Of a stretch of DNA of 64,000 nucleotides, positions 55,551 through 64,000 are shown piece by piece. The DNA is from Kaistia dalseonensis (GTDB lineage: Bacteria > Pseudomonadota > Alphaproteobacteria > Rhizobiales > Kaistiaceae): the NCBI RefSeq assembly GCF_030814715.1, contig NZ_JAUSVO010000007.1:248001-312000 (forward strand), written 5' to 3'. The notes below the pieces were generated by a model. The model worked only from the letters and a program-made list of their open reading frames with translations, did not search any database and had not been told where the DNA came from. The position numbers and the translations under genes were made by a program. The first letter of the stretch is position 1, and every line of letters begins with the position of its first letter.

Positions 55551-55686
55551 TGTCCGGGGCGGGACCTAACTTCAGCGAGGTCGCCTGTGGCGACCCCTGC
55601 CTGCCACCCATCTTCTTGCCCGTTCAGTGCATTTCGGCCCTCGCATCGCCGATGCTGTCCGGAGCCGAGTCTCAAAGGGATCCATC

Positions 55687-56559
55687 ATGACCAATACCAT
55701 TTCCGCCGCTGCATCGGGTCAGTTCACGATCGGTGGCGATCTGACCGTCAACCGTCTCGGCTTCGGCGCCATGCGCATTACAGGGCCCGGCATCTGGGAC
55801 TATCCTCCCGATATCGAGGAAGCGAAGCGCACGTTGAAGCGCGTGCCGGAGCTCGGCATCGACCTGATCGACACGGCCGATAGCTACGGCCCCTATGTCA
55901 GCGAGGATCTGATCGCCGAGGTTCTTCATCCCTACGACAAGCTCGTCATCGCCACCAAGGGTGCGTTGACGCGGCATGGTCCGAACATCTGGCGCGTGGT
56001 CGGACGCCCGGAATACCTTCGCCAATGCGTGCTCATGAGCCTGCGCCGCCTGAAGGTCGATCGGATTGATCTCTGGCAATTGCACCGGATCGATCCGGTC
56101 GTTCCGGCGAACGAACAGTTCGACGTCATCGCGCAGATGCAGAAGGAAGGGCTGATCCGCCATGTCGGCCTCTCCGAAGTATCCGTGACGGAGATCAAGG
56201 CGGCGCAGAAGTACTTCCCGGTATCGACGGTCCAGAACCAGTACAATCTCGTCGATCGCAAGAGCGAGGATGTGCTCGATTTTGCTGAGGCCAACAAGAT
56301 CGGCTTTATCCCCTGGGCGCCGCTCGCCTCCGGCGGACTGGCCAAGCCGGGTTCGGCTCTGACGGATATCGCAGGCCGGCTCGGTGCCACGGCTGGCCAG
56401 GTCGCGCTCGCCTGGCTTCTGAAGCGCTCGCCGGTGATGCTCCCGATCCCCGGAACGGGCAGTGTCAAGCATCTGGAGGAGAACACCGCCGCCGCGGGAC
56501 TCGTTCTGAGCGATGCTGATTTCGCCCTGCTCGACGAGCAGGGGCGCGCGGCCGCCTGA
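55687..56559 (+). CDS. Aldo/keto reductase
   Basis: 290 residues from ATG 55687. TIM-barrel AKR with the catalytic tetrad Asp/Tyr/Lys/His visible in [17 protein letters not shown] and LWQLHRID, and the cofactor-binding C-terminal block [20 protein letters not shown]-dependent carbonyl reduction is expected. Follows the MFS gene with a 155-bp gap that includes a TetR half-site. Confidence 0.9.
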
Positions 56560-56571
56560 GGCTTTGGCGAG

Positions 56572-56593
56572 GGGCGGGGCCTGCGCCCCGCCC
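56572..56593 (+). terminator. GC-rich hairpin after the aldo-keto reductase
   Basis: GGGCGGGGC (56572-56580) pairs with GCCCCGCCC (56585-56593) around CTGC, 12 bp past the stop. No T-run follows. Confidence 0.5.
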
Positions 56594-57212
56594 AGTCCGG
56601 CATCGTGGCGCACGACATCGACACACGGTTCCGGGCGCCATGGATTGGCAATCCCTTGCGGCCGAGACCGCCGTGCCGCTGCGCGATCAAGAGCCGTCGA
56701 TTTTTCGATCACCGAAACACGCGAAAACGTGATGCCAGCCCGGCAGCCGCATCTGCCGGCAAAAAGGCGCGGCGGGATGATCTCGATCTGATTCGTGCCC
56801 TTGGGTGATTCGGCCTCCGGTTGTGTTCGAAAGTCTCTCTCGAGCCCTCGCCAACAAGCCGTGGGCAATCTTCGGTTGTCGAATTCCGTTCACATTGGTT
56901 AACAGAACCTAACGAATTACGCTCGATTCCGTGATTTTATCGCGGTGCATCAATGCGGTATACAACCAAAAATTGTCAAGTCATGTCAATGCGATAGCAT
57001 ATCTCTGGGCCAGTTGTTGATACGGCCAAAAGGAGCACAGATGATATCGTTACCGAACAAACCTATGTGTGATTTAAGTCATAGTTGTTTGTGCAAATGA
57101 TGTATATTGATGGGATCAGGCAAGGTAGGCAGGGGCGTATGGGTAAATCCTATTGTCCAATCGCGACGGGGCAACTGTCATGACAGGGAAAACTGCGGAC
57201 GGGAGTCGTATA
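56594..57212. promoter_or_regulatory. 619-bp gene-free, increasingly AT-rich region
   Basis: No supported gene. The stretch from about 56880 is clearly AT-rich and should hold the promoter of the LuxR-type regulator, given its short start-proximal ribosome site. No inverted repeat was recognised. Confidence 0.4.
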
Positions 57213-57935
57213 ATGAATAGATTTATTGAGTGTGTCGGTAATCTTAGGACCGATCAGGATCGGTACATATGGCCCGTCACGGAAGAGTTGTGGCCGGGCA
57301 GCAATCGCATTCTGATCATTGAGGGGCGGGCACTCGTGGGGGAGATGCTGGCCAGCGCGCTGAACGCTGCCATGGAGAATGCATCGATCCGCGTCATCAA
57401 GAGCTTGAATCAGGTCTATCCGCGGGATCCGCAGATTGCCGTGTTCAATTTCATGCATCGGCAGGTCGACGCGGGGGCGATCGATGCGGTCATCCGGTGT
57501 GTGGTCAGCCGGATTGGCGAGACTCCGCTCGTCATCCTGACGGACAGCGTCGATGCGCGGATCGCGGAGGTCGTGGAGCGCCACCGGGTGCGTGGCTGGG
57601 TGGCTGCCTCGTTCGGCTTCGATATCTTCGTCGCGGCGATCCGGACGGCGCTCAGCGGCGGTGCGTTCCTGCCGAGCCTGGATGGTGAAGCGGTGCTGAT
57701 GGACGGGACCGAGCTTGGCGCCAATATGGTGCCGGATGTCGGCCTGACGGACCGTGAGCTGGAAGTGCTCAGGATCTTGAGACAGGGCAAGTCCAACAAG
57801 ATCATCTCCTTCGAACTCAATATTTCCGAGAGCACGACGAAGGTCCACATCAGCAATATCATGCGAAAGCTGCACGTTCATAACCGCACGCAGATCGCTG
57901 TAAGAATGAGCGGGGGGACGACGCCGTCCTTTTAG
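57213..57935 (+). CDS. LuxR family regulator with a receiver-like N-terminus lacking the phospho-acceptor Asp
   Basis: 240 residues from ATG 57213 (GGGAG 7 bases upstream); an ATG at 57180 would add 11. The N-terminal domain looks like a CheY fold (ILIIEGRALVGEML, then PLVILTD), but the strand that usually carries the phosphorylated Asp reads IAVFNFM, so regulation by phosphorylation is unlikely. The C-terminal LuxR HTH is normal (LTDRELEVLRILRQGKSNK, STTKVHISNIMRKL). Encoded just before the Gly/Asn-repeat genes, on the opposite strand. Confidence 0.85.
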   Translation: MNRFIECVGNLRTDQDRYIWPVTEELWPGSNRILIIEGRALVGEMLASALNAAMENASIRVIKSLNQVYPRDPQIAVFNFMHRQVDAGAIDAVIRCVVSRIGETPLVILTDSVDARIAEVVERHRVRGWVAASFGFDIFVAAIRTALSGGAFLPSLDGEAVLMDGTELGANMVPDVGLTDRELEVLRILRQGKSNKIISFELNISESTTKVHISNIMRKLHVHNRTQIAVRMSGGTTPSF

Positions 57936-57965
57936 TCACGATGTACCAGTCAGCTTCACTCACAT

Positions 57966-58000
57966 AATCGGGGGAGATGCGATCTGCGTCTCCCCCGATT
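57966..58000. terminator. Bidirectional intrinsic terminator
   Basis: AATCGGGGGAGA (57966-57977) pairs perfectly with TCTCCCCCGATT (57989-58000), loop of 11 nt, followed by TTGTT. It serves the LuxR gene and the convergent Gly/Asn-repeat gene. Confidence 0.88.
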
Positions 58001-58026
58001 TTGTTCTGCCGCTACAGCTTGAGCGG

Positions 58027-58452
58027 TCAGTTGCGGCCTGTCAGCCAGCGCAGGAACCACGGCGGCTTGCCATTGCCGGACGAGCCCTTGTTCGAATAGT
58101 CCATCCCGGATGATCCATTGGATGATCCTGCGAACGTTCCACCAGCACTGCCGCTGCCATTGCCGTTTCCGTTGCCGCTATAGCCGTTACCGTTGTTGCT
58201 CGTTGTATTGTTGTTGCCGTTATTGCTTCCGGTATTATTATTTCCATTGTTGTTACCGGAGTTGTTGTTTCCGTTGCCACTGCCGACATTGCCATTTCCG
58301 TTCCCATTACCTTGACCGACCGCAATCTTGATCGGGGGAACGATATAGAAATGACCGTCATCGATCAGGGGCGACATCTCGGGGCTGGCCGGGCGCACCA
58401 AGACCGCGGGTGAACGAAGAGTGTCGGGTATCTTGTCCCAGTTCATGTCCAT
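58027..58452 (-). CDS. Gly/Asn-rich protein without a signal peptide (repeat protein 3)
   Basis: 141 residues from ATG 58452; GGAAGGA lies upstream. A non-repetitive N-terminal part (MDMNWDKIPDTLRSPAVLV to YIVPPIKIAVGQ, about 50 residues) is followed by Gly/Asn/Ser-rich repeats less regular than in the two upstream genes, and a basic end (GNGKPPWFLRWLTGRN). No signal peptide is evident. Function unknown. It may be part of the same operon as the other two, 52 bp downstream of repeat protein 2. Confidence 0.7.
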   Translation of the reverse strand: MDMNWDKIPDTLRSPAVLVRPASPEMSPLIDDGHFYIVPPIKIAVGQGNGNGNGNVGSGNGNNNSGNNNGNNNTGSNNGNNNTTSNNGNGYSGNGNGNGSGSAGGTFAGSSNGSSGMDYSNKGSSGNGKPPWFLRWLTGRN

Positions 58453-58504
58453 GGCTGAAGTCCTTCCTGCCACGCGGTCAACCGACGGGTCGTGCGATTC
58501 GCCG

Positions 58505-59233
58505 TTACGGTGAATTGCCGTTGCCGTTGTTGTTGCCGTTGAAAGCACCAAGATTACCATTGCCGTTGAACATACCGCCATTGTTGTTGCCATTGAAAGC
58601 CCCAACATTGCCGTTGCCGCTGGTATTGCTGGAATTGCCATTGCCGTTGAAGGCGCCGATATTACCGGTTCCACCATTGAAGGCGCCGATATTACCATTG
58701 GCGTCCGGCTTTCCATTGCCGTTGACGTTGCCGTTCATCGAGCCAGTATTGAAGTTTCCGTTGAAGTTGCCACTGCGGAAACCGATGTTGCCGTTGCCAT
58801 TGCCGTTGCCATTGGCAGTGCCGGCATTGCTGTTGCCATTCCAGTTGCCGCTGAAGCCACCGCGATTGCCGTTGCCATTGCCATTGCCGTTGGCGAGCCC
58901 GGAATTGTTGTTGCCGTTGGTGTTGCCGTTGGCGACGCCGGCATTGCCGTTGCCATTTCCGTTGCCGTTGCCAGCGCCGGAATTGTTGTTGCCGTTGCTG
59001 TTGCCGTTGAACGCGCCGAAATTGCCGTTGCCGTTGCCGTTGCCGTTCAGCGTGCCGGTATTGTTGCTGCCGTTATTGTTGCCGTTGCCGACGCCGACGT
59101 TACCGTTGCCATTGCCGTTGCCGCTGTTCGAGGCGGCGAAGACGGGCGCGCCCGAGATGGCGAGCAGCAGGGCTGTCGAGGCCAGGACCATACCGATGCG
59201 TCCACCGGTGACGCGCGTTCCAAGCTTGTTCAT
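58505..59233 (-). CDS. Secreted Gly/Asn 13-residue tandem repeat protein (repeat protein 2)
   Basis: 242 residues from ATG 59233 (GGAGGAG 6 bases upstream). A signal peptide of about 34 residues ends APVFAAS. Then ten near-perfect 13-residue repeats with the pattern N-G-N-x-N-G-N-x-N-x-G-x-x (for example NGNGNGNGNFGAF, NGNSNGNNNSGAG), alternating all-GN copies with variable ones, then a less regular part from about residue 165. Predicted exported beta-solenoid-like fold. No known family recognised. Confidence 0.8.
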   Translation of the reverse strand: MNKLGTRVTGGRIGMVLASTALLLAISGAPVFAASNSGNGNGNGNVGVGNGNNNGSNNTGTLNGNGNGNGNFGAFNGNSNGNNNSGAGNGNGNGNGNAGVANGNTNGNNNSGLANGNGNGNGNRGGFSGNWNGNSNAGTANGNGNGNGNIGFRSGNFNGNFNTGSMNGNVNGNGKPDANGNIGAFNGGTGNIGAFNGNGNSSNTSGNGNVGAFNGNNNGGMFNGNGNLGAFNGNNNGNGNSP

Positions 59234-59407
59234 GATGTACTCCTCCAAAATCCATGACATGGCGCCAGTTTGAACGGCCCGCCCCGCGGCCTCGCCGCTC
59301 AAGCTGAATGAAGTCCCTGGGCCGATGGGTTTTCGGCCGCCCGCAGGGATCGCGATGCGGGCGGCCTTGTCGCCGCTGGCCGTCAAACCGGCCGGGCAGG
59401 GCAGCTA

Positions 59408-59863
59408 TCAATGCTGGAAATTGCCGTTTCCGTTGCCGTTGCCGGCGCCGAAATTGCTATTGCCGTTGACGTTGCCGTTGCCGAAACCCGAATTGAGATT
59501 GCCGTTCAGGTTGCCGTTGGCGAGACCGAAATTGCGGTTGCCGTTGGCATTGCCGTTGCCGACGCCCCAATTGAGGTTGCCGTTTCCGTTGCCGTTCAGG
59601 ACGCCGAAATTGCCATTGCCGTTGGCATTGCCATTGCCAAGGCCGGCATTGAGATTGCCGTTGGCATTGCCGTTAAAGGCACCGAAATTCCCGTTGCCAT
59701 TGCCGTTGCCATTGAACGCGCCGGTATTGCCGTTGCCGTTCAGATTGCCGTTTCCGACGCCGACATTGCCATTGCCGTTGCCATTGCCGCTTCCCACGGA
59801 AAAGGCGCTGGCACCGGACGTCAGGGCGAGAACGAGGGCGGCTGAGACGAGAAGTGCTTTCAT
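59408..59863 (-). CDS. Secreted Gly/Asn 13-residue tandem repeat protein (repeat protein 1)
   Basis: 151 residues from ATG 59863 (AAGGAG upstream). A signal peptide of about 20 residues ends GASAF. The whole mature protein consists of nine consecutive 13-residue repeats of the same pattern (NGNLNGNGNTGAF, NGNANGNRNFGLA, NGNLNGNLNSGFG) and a short cap (NGNGNGNFQH). The periodicity is exact, with no gaps. The aromatic or aliphatic residue at position 10 and small residues at 11-13 are conserved. Predicted exported repeat fibre or solenoid; function unknown. Confidence 0.82.
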   Translation of the reverse strand: MKALLVSAALVLALTSGASAFSVGSGNGNGNGNVGVGNGNLNGNGNTGAFNGNGNGNGNFGAFNGNANGNLNAGLGNGNANGNGNFGVLNGNGNGNLNWGVGNGNANGNRNFGLANGNLNGNLNSGFGNGNVNGNSNFGAGNGNGNGNFQH

Positions 59864-59920
59864 GATGGGTTCCTCTCCTTGCTGAAGTGAGGTGGCGATG
59901 CCGCCACATGCCGCGAGACC

Positions 59921-60000
59921 CTGGGATAGCCGGGGCTACCCTGGGATAGCCGAAGCAACCCTTGGGATAGCTGGGCTACCCTTGGGATAGCCGGGGCCGG
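59921..60000. repeat. Four tandem 20-bp repeats upstream of repeat protein 1
   Basis: Four consecutive 20-bp copies (59921-59940, 59941-59960, 59961-59980, 59981-60000) share the core TGGGATAGC. Adjacent copies form a GGCTACCC/GGGATAGCC near-palindrome at each junction. They lie 58-137 bp upstream of the repeat-protein-1 start, in promoter position, and could be a series of regulator sites. Confidence 0.7.
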
Positions 60001-60224
60001 CCCGCGGATTTCGCCGCAGGAGACTGTCCCGGCGGCCGCGGCCTTCCTATCTGGCAGTTCGGCCATTGGCCTATCCGCCGTCCGCGGAGCCGGACGGCCT
60101 AATCCGCCCGGCCATGATCCGGACTAGGCCTTTGTTCCCGAATGGGTCTAGACTTCGCCTAGGCATTCCGGGCGATCCACATCGCCGATCGGCCTAAACC
60201 ATCCGCACGAGAGGGATCATCCAA
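60001..60224. promoter_or_regulatory. Divergent intergenic region with repeated GGCCTA motifs
   Basis: Several GGCCTA-containing motifs occur near 60068, 60095, 60127 and 60191, two of them followed by CCGCC. It separates the Gly/Asn-repeat operon from the divergent aldo-keto reductase. Function not known. Confidence 0.35.
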
Positions 60225-61205
60225 ATGGACTACACCCGACTTGGCCGCACCGGCCTCGAAGTCTCGCGCATCTGTCTCGGCTGCATGAGCTATGGCGAGC
60301 CGGACCGCGGCAACCACGCCTGGACGCTGGGGGAGGCGGAGAGCCGGCCCTTCATTCAGCGCGCGCTGGAGCTCGGCATCAATTTCTTCGATACGGCCAA
60401 TGTCTATTCAGATGGCACGAGCGAGGAGATCGTCGGCCGCGCGCTGAAGGATTTCGCCCGCCGCGAAGAGGTGGTGATCGCGACCAAGGTGCATGGCCGC
60501 ATGCGCCCCGGCCCGAACGGCGCCGGCCTCTCGCGCCGCGCCATCCTCTCCGAGATCGACGCCAGCCTGAAGCGAATCGGCACCGATTATGTCGATCTCT
60601 ACCAGATCCACCGATTCGACTATCAGACCCCGATCGAGGAGACGCTGGAGGCGCTGAACGATGTCGTGCGCGCCGGCAAGGCGCGCTATATCGGCGCGTC
60701 CTCCATGTATGCCTGGCAGTTCGCGCAGATGCTCGCGACCTCGGAAAAGCACGGCTGGGCCCGCTTCGTCTCGATGCAGGATTATGTGAACCTGCTCTAT
60801 CGCGAGGAAGAGCGCGAAATGCTGCCGCTCTGCAGGGCGGAGGGCATCGGCGTCATTCCATGGAGCCCGCTCGCGCGCGGCCGCCTGACGCGCGACTGGG
60901 ACGCGGCCACCGCCCGCGCCGAGACCGACGAATTCGGCAAGACGCTCTATGCCCGCACAGAGGAGGCCGACCGCAAGGTCGTCGCCGCCGTCGCGACGAT
61001 CGCCGAAAAGCGCTCGCTGCCGCGCGCCCAGATCGCGCTCGCCTGGCTGCTCTCAAAACCCGTCATCACCGCGCCGATCGTCGGCGCCACCAAGACAAGC
61101 CACCTCGAAGACGCCGTCGCCGCCCTCACAGTGAAGCTCGAGCCCGACGAAATCACCGCGCTCGAAACCCCCTATGCGCCGCATCAGGTAATGGGGTTTG
61201 CGTAA
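60225..61205 (+). CDS. Aldo/keto reductase
   Basis: 326 residues from ATG 60225. The AKR tetrad is visible in FFDTANVYSDG (Asp, Tyr), VIATKVHGRM (Lys) and LYQIHRFDY (His), with the C-terminal APIVGATKTSHLED cofactor block. It resembles YghZ/YhdN-type NADP-dependent reductases. Unrelated in sequence neighbourhood to the TetR-linked reductase. Confidence 0.92.
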   Translation: MDYTRLGRTGLEVSRICLGCMSYGEPDRGNHAWTLGEAESRPFIQRALELGINFFDTANVYSDGTSEEIVGRALKDFARREEVVIATKVHGRMRPGPNGAGLSRRAILSEIDASLKRIGTDYVDLYQIHRFDYQTPIEETLEALNDVVRAGKARYIGASSMYAWQFAQMLATSEKHGWARFVSMQDYVNLLYREEEREMLPLCRAEGIGVIPWSPLARGRLTRDWDAATARAETDEFGKTLYARTEEADRKVVAAVATIAEKRSLPRAQIALAWLLSKPVITAPIVGATKTSHLEDAVAALTVKLEPDEITALETPYAPHQVMGFA

Positions 61206-61618
61206 GGGGGAGGACTATCGGCGTTTCAGGTTCTGATTGAACAGCTGGGAATCCTCCCCTCCAAAGCACGGGGCTCCGTCATGGCCGCAACAGGAGCGGC
61301 CACGACGAGGCTGTCGCATTGGCATTAATTAGAGCTTCGCGCTAAGCTTTACGGTGGCGCCAGAGGGAGCGCCCGCTATCGCTTACAAGCCTAGAAACTG
61401 GGCTTTCAGGGATGGCTAGGGGGACACGATGTCTCCCTTTTGTGTGCTTGCGTCTCACGCAACGAGATAACTTGCAATAGTTTCATCTCGCGAACCCATC
61501 GCGCATGTTCTGTACACCTTAATCATTCGTACAAGGTCTACGTCGATCTCCTTGTGAATAGCGAAATTCATTATTTTGAGGAGGACGCACCAGACGTAGC
61601 ACTCATGTTAAAGGTGAG
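61206..61618. other. Boundary region with a drop in G+C
   Basis: No supported gene. Base composition falls from the GC-rich chromosome at 61205 to a visibly AT-richer stretch by about 61440. It has a hairpin AGCC/GGCT (61387-61405) and a terminator-like hairpin at 61418-61438. No tRNA was recognised at the boundary. Confidence 0.5.
61418..61438 (+). terminator. Terminator-like hairpin
   Basis: AGGGGGACA pairs with TGTCTCCCT (one G-T pair) around CGA and is followed by TTTTGTG. It could end the aldo-keto reductase transcript or insulate the following gene. Confidence 0.5.
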
Positions 61619-64000
61619 ATGCGCGGAACGTTTAGCAGGACGCATATCGTAAACGGGGCATGTATGTTGTTTGAAGCTGATCCTGATTTCATCGCGGGTC
61701 TCGACGACAAGACATTGGTGAGGCTCCTGAAACGCCTCGTATTATCCGAGAGCCGCCTTGCGGGGATACCGCTACGCGGGGCGGCTGTACCCTTGCAAAT
61801 CACCATAGCTGACGGTGGCGAAGATGGTCGTGTCGAGTGGAACGGTGGGCAATCATCGACTGCCTATCTGCCAAGTCGATTTACTGCGTTTCAATCAAAG
61901 GCCCAAAATCTAACGGAGAGCCGTGTTCGCGATGAGGTTCTGAAGGTGGCTAAGGCACAGCCGCCGGAGCTAAGCTCGGTCATTCGTGATGTTCTTGCAC
62001 GCAAGGGTGCCTATGTAATATTTTGCCGCGAACGGATGGTTACGGCAAAACGAGCAAAGCTTGTGAAAGCTATCCGTTCTGCGATCACCACGGGCGGCGG
62101 GGATCCCAGCGATGCTGCCGCGATGGAGGTCTACGACGCCAATCTGATAGCCGATTGGGTGAACACCCACCCCGCCGTCGCCTTGTGGTTAGCCTCACAA
62201 CGCATGGGGCGCAACCTTGCTGGTTTCCAAACCCATGAAGCGTGGGGGCAGGTGCCTGATTTTAACTCAGCTTGGAAATCCAGTGAGGAGCCAAGGTTTG
62301 CGCCTGTAAACCGCGTCGTGCCATTAGAAGTACGAGCCGATCCGAAACGGAGCGCGTGGACCTACGAGCAAGCTGCTGAAGAGATCTTGCAATTTCTCTC
62401 CTCTGAGAAAGCAATTGTTCGGGTGTTTGGGCCATCTGGATATGGGAAATCACGTTTTACCTTTGAAGTGCTTGGCCGTACAAGCACCTTCGCTGACGAG
62501 ATCGATCGAAGCTCGGTGATCTACACTGATGGCTCAATTTCAGGCGAGGAATGTGTAAAGCTTGCACTGGAGCTCGCAACTACTGGATTCCCAGCGATTC
62601 TCGTAGTCGATGAGTGCGCAGACGATCTGCACAATAAGCTCGCTAGCATCGCAGCTCGTAACAATTCGCGGCTGAGGCTAGTTACGCTCGACATCGAGAC
62701 TAAGGTTCTTCAGGCGAACAATACACTTTCTGTCCGTGTCGAGAAGTCGGATGACAAACTGATTGGCGAGATTGCGAAGAGCATAGCGCCTAGCCTTAGC
62801 GATGGTGATACTCGCTTTATCACCGAGATCGCTGAGGGTTTTCCGAGCATGGCAGTGCTGGCTGCACAGCAGGATGCAGATAGTAGACAGACACTGGTGT
62901 CAGCGGAGCAAGTTCTCGACAGGATCATATGGAGCGGCAAGCAACGTGTGGCGGACGCGCAGAGAGTGTTGGAGATCGCATCGTTGTTTGAGTGGCTAGG
63001 ATTGCAGGGGAGAGTGGAGAGCCAAGCTGGCTTTCTCGCCGCAGAGTTGGCACATGTCCCAGCGCCGCTATTTGTAGAACATCTCCTATCGTTCACGCCG
63101 CGTGGCATTATTTCTCAACGTGGTGACTTTGTGCAGGTTGGTCCAACACCATTGGCCGCCCGCCTTGGTCTTGCTCGGCTGTCCGTGATGACAGCAGAGC
63201 AACTAGTTCACTTCTTTAAGACGGCGCCTTCAGAGCTTCAGGCCAGCCTTCTCAAGCGTATAAAGTGGATGGACACGTCGCCAACCGCCGTGGCGTTTGC
63301 TGAGAGGCTGCTTCAGCCCGAGATGTTTGGCAACTTCGCCGCGCTCAATACGGAATTTGGTTCGAAAGCTCTTGATCGTCTGGTGCACGTTGCGCCGGAC
63401 CTCGTGTCTGCAACCATCGACAGAGTGTTCGGACACCTAACTATCGAAGAATTAAAAGTTGCGCATGATGGTCATCGCCACCTCGTTTGGGCTTTGGAAA
63501 AACTTGTATTTAGGGCCCAGACATTTGAACGGTCCGCTCATTTGCTCATGAAGCTTGCGGCAGCCGAGAATGAAAACTACGGCAATAACGCTAGCGGCAT
63601 ATTCAAGCAGCTTTACCAGTTATACCTAAGCGGTACCGAGGCTGCCCCTGCCGCAAGGCTGTTGGTTTTAGACGATGGTCTGGCATCAACATCGGAGGCC
63701 GAACGGCGCGTTTGTGTCGATGCGCTCGGCCATATGTTGGACAGCCAGCACTATTCGCGTGGCGGCGGTGCGGAGCAGATCGGTAGTGCAGAGGCAATAG
63801 AGGACTGGCGGCCCAAGACCTATGGCGAGATCCACGATTTCTTTCGCGCCGCAGTCTCTCGTCTTACAGATATAGCGGTTAGTAATGATGTTTGCGCAAA
63901 CGTCGCACAAGCCCATCTCGCGTCACACATTCGTGGGCTTTTACGCGACCTACCTAGTGCCGAAGTCAAGGCAATGATTGACAAGGTTGTACGTGTCAGA
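61619..64000 (+). CDS. Partial large P-loop NTPase with a PD-(D/E)XK-like N-terminal domain, open at the window edge
   Basis: At least 779 residues with no stop to position 64000, counted from ATG 61664 (all residue numbers below use it); ATG 61619, preceded by AAGGTGAG, would add 15. The N-terminal segment carries GGEDGRVEW (51-59) and FQSKAQN (76-82) with Q77 and K79, the spacing of D/E...QxK nucleases. Walker A GPSGYGKS (256-263) and Walker B ILVVDECAD (D316/E317) define the NTPase. A long helical C-terminal region follows. This order of effector, NTPase and helical sensor resembles STAND/Avs-type defence proteins, but family assignment is inference. Lower G+C suggests transfer. Confidence 0.7.
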   Translation, partial: MRGTFSRTHIVNGACMLFEADPDFIAGLDDKTLVRLLKRLVLSESRLAGIPLRGAAVPLQITIADGGEDGRVEWNGGQSSTAYLPSRFTAFQSKAQNLTESRVRDEVLKVAKAQPPELSSVIRDVLARKGAYVIFCRERMVTAKRAKLVKAIRSAITTGGGDPSDAAAMEVYDANLIADWVNTHPAVALWLASQRMGRNLAGFQTHEAWGQVPDFNSAWKSSEEPRFAPVNRVVPLEVRADPKRSAWTYEQAAEEILQFLSSEKAIVRVFGPSGYGKSRFTFEVLGRTSTFADEIDRSSVIYTDGSISGEECVKLALELATTGFPAILVVDECADDLHNKLASIAARNNSRLRLVTLDIETKVLQANNTLSVRVEKSDDKLIGEIAKSIAPSLSDGDTRFITEIAEGFPSMAVLAAQQDADSRQTLVSAEQVLDRIIWSGKQRVADAQRVLEIASLFEWLGLQGRVESQAGFLAAELAHVPAPLFVEHLLSFTPRGIISQRGDFVQVGPTPLAARLGLARLSVMTAEQLVHFFKTAPSELQASLLKRIKWMDTSPTAVAFAERLLQPEMFGNFAALNTEFGSKALDRLVHVAPDLVSATIDRVFGHLTIEELKVAHDGHRHLVWALEKLVFRAQTFERSAHLLMKLAAAENENYGNNASGIFKQLYQLYLSGTEAAPAARLLVLDDGLASTSEAERRVCVDALGHMLDSQHYSRGGGAEQIGSAEAIEDWRPKTYGEIHDFFRAAVSRLTDIAVSNDVCANVAQAHLASHIRGLLRDLPSAEVKAMIDKVVRVR

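Follow-up and report, generated by a model that had tools for sequence, protein, structure and literature searches.

What kind of system do two neighbouring genes of Kaistia dalseonensis encode when both are built from 13-residue Gly/Asn repeats, and what could their products do outside the cell? The question was raised by an earlier reading of the window, that is, the whole stretch of 64,000 nucleotides analysed here. This original prediction described two secreted repeat proteins, and both open reading frames are present on the minus strand. Gene A (59408-59863), the nine-copy protein, encodes 151 aa and comprises 9 repeats, each exactly 13 residues long. Gene B (58505-59233), the ten-copy protein, encodes 242 aa when counted from its ATG, the open reading frame list giving a longer TTG start, and its 10 repeats are followed by a C-terminal module. 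Signal peptides were recognized in both by inspection and with no prediction program, with a cleavage between GASA and FSVG in A and a hydrophobic stretch that ends in VFA in B.

When Asn or Ser is allowed at positions 1 and 7, NGNxNGNxNxGxx units are found 9 times in A and 10 times in B and all spacings are exactly 13. The predicted counts and spacing therefore hold, but the copies are not exact, since strict NGNxNGNxNxG is found in 8 units of A and 6 units of B and the gene A repeats, tandem in DNA with periods of 39/78 bases, share a mean DNA identity of 73%. In the window, a degenerate 32-base pattern has 14 occurrences, of which 8 fall in A and 6 in B, versus 0.00 in 100 dinucleotide shuffles. 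In the same way, identity at lag 13 reaches 0.66 in A and 0.42 in B, 500 shuffles giving no value above 0.43 and 0.36, respectively, whatever the lag. As the pattern is absent from shuffles and lag-13 identity exceeds every shuffle lag, a chance origin of the 13 period in A and B is excluded. A super-period of 26 residues made of alternating repeats was also considered and discarded as not robust, lag 26 being about as strong as lag 13.

Among 118 units collected from 14 proteins, the Asn/Gly positions are nearly fixed and positions 4, 8, 10, 12 and 13 are variable, the search pattern itself fixing positions 2, 5, 6, 9 and 11 and restricting position 1. Most of these pattern-fixed columns are invariant in an alignment of six gene A homologues, which is independent evidence. 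Position 10, held to be conserved in the original prediction, carries varied residues (T, F, A, W, S, V and others), and it is Gly11 that is fixed. In B, the 13 register is lost over the last ~70 residues. This C-terminal part (58505-58738, minus strand) shows periods 5 and 9 (NIGAFNGGTG..., NGNNNGGMFNGNGNLGAF) and shares 62-81% identity, by alignment, with six homologous stretches that come from five genomes, so that it represents a module and not decay.

The two genes do not stand alone. They lie in a block of DNA (56560-60224) bounded on both sides by aldo/keto reductase genes (55627-56559 and 60225-61205), together with two genes that were absent from the original prediction. Gene C (58027-58452, minus strand) encodes an Asn/Gly-rich protein of 141 aa made of a ~47-residue head, some 4+5 repeats and a hydrophobic/basic end (PPWFLRWLTGRN); its lag-13 identity of 0.23 amounts to no 13 period, and no signal peptide was visible by inspection of its sequence. 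The other gene (57153-57935, plus strand) encodes a LuxR-type regulator of 260 aa from its listed TTG start. The order on the minus strand is A, B, C from right to left, each preceded at its ATG by a likely ribosome-binding sequence (AGGAAGG for C), and the LuxR gene converges on C. A terminator-like hairpin of 16 pairs (57966-58000) lies between these two convergent genes. The best reading of the block is that of an accessory cassette, in which A, B, C and the LuxR gene would serve a secreted repeat-protein system with several components.

The accessory position of the block is apparent from the same genus. The right-hand reductase is found in all 13 other genomes at 79-83% identity, and none of the 13 matched the repeat-protein profile. 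Seven reductase regions of the genus were examined; both reductases are present in four of them and no Asn/Gly-rich ORF was detected in any of the seven by the filter used. The two reductases are directly adjacent, the cassette site being empty, in G005 (94 bp from stop to start) and G010 (~200 bp), and are separated in G009 and G011 by other genes, which by sequence reading encode a quinoprotein-type dehydrogenase and a small membrane protein. In G001 and G006 the left-hand reductase is not in the stretch, and in G002 the contig ends. The G+C content is 0.555-0.59 over most of the block compared with 0.61-0.66 to its left. Composition is nevertheless weak evidence of transfer, because the stretch to the right of 61 kb is also low in G+C. 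This latter stretch, to the right of the second reductase (61000-64000), has a G+C of 0.53-0.56, and four short ORFs tested in it gave no Pfam match over cut-off. ARAGORN found no tRNA at 50-64 kb, a viral scan gave 600 stretches that matched a pattern with none confirmed, and a plasmid search with gene A gave no match.

Clusters homologous to this one occur in six other genomes of the order, which represent three further genera (G145, G173 and G219 of one genus, then G129, G170 and G068), and in Geminicoccus harenae. The profile search across the order that had been proposed, run with A and B, gave matches in 6 of 397 genomes, that is K. dalseonensis itself with G129, G145, G173, G219 and G170. 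A six-sequence profile matched 5 of 385 genomes of the class and 6 of 398 of the phylum (the samples overlap), and G068 is the new carrier that was kept after reading these matches. The others were dropped: G725 is Gly/Asn/Arg-rich without the 13 period, G525 has tandem Asn/Gly proteins with other periods, G754 is a 79-aa fragment at a contig end with lags 24, 11 and 13, and G051 is not Asn/Gly-rich by the filter used. In a collection of 84,980 named species, at least one carrier, G. harenae, was among the matches listed. Three of five genomes carry the locus in the genus of G145. From these profile counts at the levels of order, class, phylum and genus, the locus is rare and patchy, yet recurrent in distant families.

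The clusters contain three to five Asn/Gly-rich genes each; in G068 a single one is visible, close to where a 6-kb contig ends. A gene of gene-C-like make-up occupies the same place in other clusters, but its BLASTP match to gene C is not significant (E = 7.3). In G145, G173 and G219, a neighbour protein (L037:7026-7613, also in L038 and L039) combines a short run of Asn and Gly with a C-terminal part that contains Cys, and matched no Pfam family over its cut-off. Separately, G525, of the same class, contains five tandem Asn/Gly-rich ORFs with signal-peptide-like starts (L050:7177-13092), in which NxGxxNGNxN elements occur at longer, irregular spacing and four of which end in GLP. These ORFs are a different repeat system, possibly related to that of the cassette.

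Is the regularity of the repeats maintained, or merely generated? Repeats that are tandem in DNA and a locus that is patchy could be taken for functionless products of slippage, an explanation that we find barely credible in view of the comparison between carriers. Gene A has 151 aa and 9 repeats not only in K. dalseonensis but also in G145, G173 and G219, which belong to another family; its homologues have 138 aa and 8 repeats in G129 and 145 aa and 8 repeats in G. harenae, and the spacing is always 13, so that no loss of the period was seen in homologues. Among the three congeners G145, G173 and G219, dN/dS (Nei-Gojobori) is 0.10-0.16 for A and 0.05-0.13 for B, values that show, at the level of substitution rates, purifying selection on both genes within this genus. 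At the five variable positions, repeats of the same index agree at 0.87 between G173 and G219 versus 0.32 when permuted (0 of 2000 as good; one congeneric pair). Each repeat thus keeps its own identity in this pair, which argues that the arrays were not freshly made by slippage, and so does the DNA identity of only 73% among gene A repeats. The agreement is 0.40 versus 0.24 permuted (11 of 2000) between K. dalseonensis A and that of G173, and with G129 it is indistinguishable from permuted (301 of 2000 as good). The Asn/Gly frame and register are therefore kept over families, and the face residues mostly among close relatives. Taken together, a 13 period kept across families, a fixed length and repeat number of gene A in two families and low dN/dS support the original suggestion of selection for a regular structure.

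The same suggestion had set the repeat apart from known solenoids on the ground that these have other periods. This is too simple, as the 13-mer can be read as NGNx + NGNx + NxGxx (4+4+5) and sister proteins of the same clusters use 4+5 and 5+5, giving periods 9 and 10. With these units, which were picked after the sequences had been seen, A parses as 445 repeated with 91% covered (shuffles: mean 48%, largest 64%) and B as mostly 445 repeated, then 555, then 4545, with 89% covered (largest shuffle 64%). Several other cluster proteins parse as 4545. In nine A-/B-type proteins from five genera, 77-91% of the Asn/Gly region is covered, shuffle means being 41-50% and the largest shuffles 60-69%. 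Overall, 13 of 17 parsed proteins exceed the largest of 300 shuffles, gene C of K. dalseonensis, G129_3, G170_4 and L020_3 falling outside this group and G173_C passing barely (58% versus 55%). Best lags, compared in the carriers other than G219, are 13 or 26 for the A-type proteins of G173, G145, G129, G170, G068 and G. harenae, and 9 or 18 for second or C-type proteins of G173, G145, G129 (two), G170 (one) and G. harenae (one). Pure fives, NxGxx in series, are restricted to short runs of the B module, and elsewhere fives alternate with fours.

As the 13-mer reads as 4+4+5 and sister proteins have periods 9 and 10, a relation to five-residue NxGxx repeats is possible. In its strongest form, the proteins would be relatives of the PPE-MPTR repeats of mycobacteria (Pfam Pentapeptide_2, NxGxx) into which NGNx spacers had been inserted, in keeping with the high coverage of the two-unit parse, with the pure fives of the B module and with one G129 sister protein that matches PF01469 at E = 0.00033. 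The MPTR motif is given as NxGxGNxG in the available text of PMC7028111. That match, at 20.9 bits, stays below the cut-off of 26.4, and none was found in the nine other proteins searched alongside; A, B and C have neither a PF01469 nor a PPE domain match, and among seven B-module stretches one matched PF01469, at E = 7.2. The units, moreover, were chosen with the sequences in view, and so short a motif could arise twice, so that we regard this kinship as unlikely.

What fold the repeat may adopt was approached by the structure prediction of mature A that had been suggested. AlphaFold2 placed a strand about every 13 residues, with a best pLDDT of 57 and pTM of 0.40 for A alone (models down to 40) and a pLDDT of 68.8 and pTM of 0.52 when three aligned sequences were used, those of A, the repeat part of B and the G. 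harenae protein (models down to 55). AlphaFold2 is described in the available text of PMC11795689 as tending to invent beta-solenoids for repeats. Because of this bias and of a confidence that is not high, a beta-solenoid of 13 residues per turn can be proposed with low to moderate confidence. Foldseek found no solved fold matching the A model at E<=0.001. Weak matches were to the left-handed beta-helix proteins LpxA, WlbB and NeuO (Foldseek E of 6 or more), and VIA-align, with four chains compared, gave Z 6.6-6.9 and rmsd 8.9-9.5 A to left-handed beta-helix acyltransferases. The best PDB sequence matches of A, B and C were at E = 0.85, 0.39 and 0.39 and concerned unrelated molecules, and the gene A profile gave no PDB match at E<=1. 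More generally, A, B and C had no match beyond chance level in Pfam, NCBIfam, PHROGs or PDB, so that no characterised repeat family was found for the window proteins. No description of an Asn/Gly 13-mer family was found in the available text of the open-access literature, preprints lying outside its coverage, and a PNAS paper on knotted solenoids concerns, in its available text, another protein group.

The composition bears on the same question. The mature A and B chains are ~65-70% Asn + Gly (~70% in A) and nearly uncharged. Mature A has 0-1 charged residues in K. dalseonensis, G173 and G129 and 14 in G. harenae, and A has no Cys and no Pro in any of these four. The face positions of G. harenae are mostly taken by charged or polar residues. 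This speaks against a core that is strictly hydrophobic; either the Asn ladders would be what stays constant, or the chain would be disordered. Secreted but intrinsically disordered chains would form a hydrated gel, a lubricant or a desiccation protectant, in which the period does no more than space side chains evenly. A chain so rich in Asn and Gly, with few charges in three of the A proteins and no Cys or Pro, the moderate AlphaFold2 confidence with no solved fold matched and the charged or polar faces of G. harenae would all suit such a polymer. A gel, however, has no obvious need for an exact 13 period, for a repeat number fixed in two families or for a conserved, differently pitched module, and disorder is in our opinion rather doubtful.

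A solenoid face could also bind ice or a mineral. In known ice-binding solenoids one face bears rows of TxT, and Thr is found at both 10 and 12 in 5, 6 and 8 of 10 units in the second A-type proteins of G173, G219 and G145, respectively (for the three, L037:8956-9813, L038:7755-8576 and L039:8635-9447; they also have a Cys-containing tail). Units with both Thr number 0 of 9 in A and 1 of 10 in B of K. dalseonensis and are absent from A of G129, G170 and G. harenae. Being almost absent outside the paralogue of the G145 genus, the Thr row is not a feature of the family or of the window, and an ice-binding role appears distinctly unlikely.

The LuxR protein has a GerE DNA-binding domain behind a region without a Response_reg match (Pfam), and its best NCBIfam models, MadR and then CsgD, are both far below cut-offs. 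Relatives of the gene adjoin the clusters in six of eight loci, that of K. dalseonensis included, in three orientations. Their identity to the K. dalseonensis protein is 34.5-35.2% over ~250 aa in G145, G173 and G219, 31% in G170 and 32% in G068. The linked gene is the best whole-genome LuxR match in G219, G170 and G068. In G145 and G173 the whole-genome search split the linked gene in two and unlinked genes (86.7 and 84.6 bits) scored above either piece; an unfiltered search gave 132 and 131 bits for the whole linked gene, whose rank as best match in these two genomes rests on comparing two search settings. G129 has only a poor LuxR match at its cluster, where a histidine kinase and a true response regulator occupy the place, and no LuxR match was found within a ~16 kb stretch at the G. 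harenae cluster. As the gene is convergent here, upstream in the same direction in the G145 genus and divergent in G170/G068, its linkage to the cluster survives rearrangement. Upstream of gene A, four direct repeats of 20-21 bp, GCTATCCCAAGGGTAGC-like and each imperfectly palindromic (59918-59997, 55-134 bp before the start), may form a candidate operator array. No comparable array precedes the first repeat gene in six other clusters, the best single site having 5-9 mismatches of 17.

Secreted Asn/Gly-rich tandem subunits recall curli, as does an adjacent LuxR gene for which CsgD is the second-best NCBIfam model, and A and B could be imagined as curlins of a divergent curli system with the LuxR protein as CsgD. 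Alphaproteobacterial curli loci often have no csgD and csgE and, in about half of the genera, no csgF either (PMC3521004, available text). Yet no Curlin_rpt (PF07012) match was found in the K. dalseonensis genome up to E = 1, the control being positive in E. coli and over cut-off in 1 of 14 named genomes, and the six gene A homologues searched gave none at E values up to 10. The QxGxxN motif is impossible in A or B, which contain one Gln (at the very end of A) and none, respectively. CsgG (PF03783) was found in none of six carrier genomes tested, K. dalseonensis among them (G068 and G. harenae left out), the control being positive in 4 of 14 named genomes. The match to CsgD (PRK10100) is 61 bits against a cut-off of 250, which indicates the same superfamily. 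According to the available text of PMC10192328, curlin repeats average 23 +/- 5 aa and CsgG was missing in only 2% of genomes with CsgA in a large survey. Membership in curli thus fails on the repeat motif, CsgG and CsgD, and even a divergent curli system is very improbable.

The reading that we prefer, and whose probability we place somewhat below even, is a secreted beta-solenoid fibre, coat or matrix that resembles curli in its logic but is not curli. A and B would be exported by Sec, as the signal peptides read from their sequences indicate, and each turn of the regular beta-solenoid formed by the mature chains would take up 13 residues. Ladders would arise from the stacking of Asn at alternate positions 1-9, Gly11 would mark the turn and the variable residues 4, 8, 10, 12 and 13 would lie on the solenoid faces. 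A may then be the repetitive main subunit, and B the same solenoid with a differently pitched C-terminal module to cap or join; C, with its non-repeat head and tail, could act as anchor or nucleator, and the neighbouring LuxR protein could switch the cassette on. The end product would be an extracellular fibre, coat or matrix. Among the possible roles (amyloid, coat, adhesive and ice-binding in the original prediction), that of a structural matrix or coat protein is the one favoured by neighbourhood and composition. Genes for secretion or assembly were not seen in the immediate neighbourhood. A more far-reaching proposal, which we consider possible only in a tentative sense, is an undescribed secreted solenoid-fibre family on Asn ladders with a modular NGNx/NxGxx code, in which 13 (4+4+5), 9 (4+5) and 10 (5+5) would be interchangeable pitches of one fold, borne on a self-regulated cassette moving among Alphaproteobacteria and with an outer-membrane route unlike that of curli.

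If A and B form fibres or coats, they would make up a further bacterial matrix system outside the definition of curli. The simple code of Asn, Gly and five free positions per 13 invites protein design and offers a direct test of whether Asn ladders alone hold a solenoid. In addition, the grammar in common with MPTR is a testable bridge to mycobacterial repeats, and the linked regulator with the empty sites in relatives lends itself to simple deletion and transfer experiments.

Set beside known systems, the cassette appears to be of a known kind, that of secreted structural repeat proteins, and its repeat family, for which Pfam, NCBIfam, PHROGs and PDB held no match, appears to be new. As in PPE-MPTR and other Pentapeptide_2 (PF01469) proteins, NxGxx units are used, but in the cassette the fives alternate with NGNx fours and the proteins have a Sec-type signal peptide and no PPE domain match. 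PPE10 belongs to the MPTR subgroup, and we know of no solved structure for the MPTR repeats of mycobacteria. In the available text of PMC4900558, PPE10 is an ESX-5 substrate that maintains the mycobacterial capsule. With the left-handed beta-helix acyltransferases LpxA, WlbB and NeuO only weak structural matches are shared, which are not evidence of kinship. These are hexapeptide-repeat enzymes. With curli, finally, the cassette has in common secreted Asn/Gly-rich tandem-repeat subunits, adjacent paralogous genes and a LuxR-type regulator, a beta-solenoid being proposed here too, together with a paralogue bearing an extra module and a small partner. It differs from curli in a repeat of 13 (or 9) residues instead of ~23, and in having no QxGxxN, no CsgG and no Curlin_rpt.
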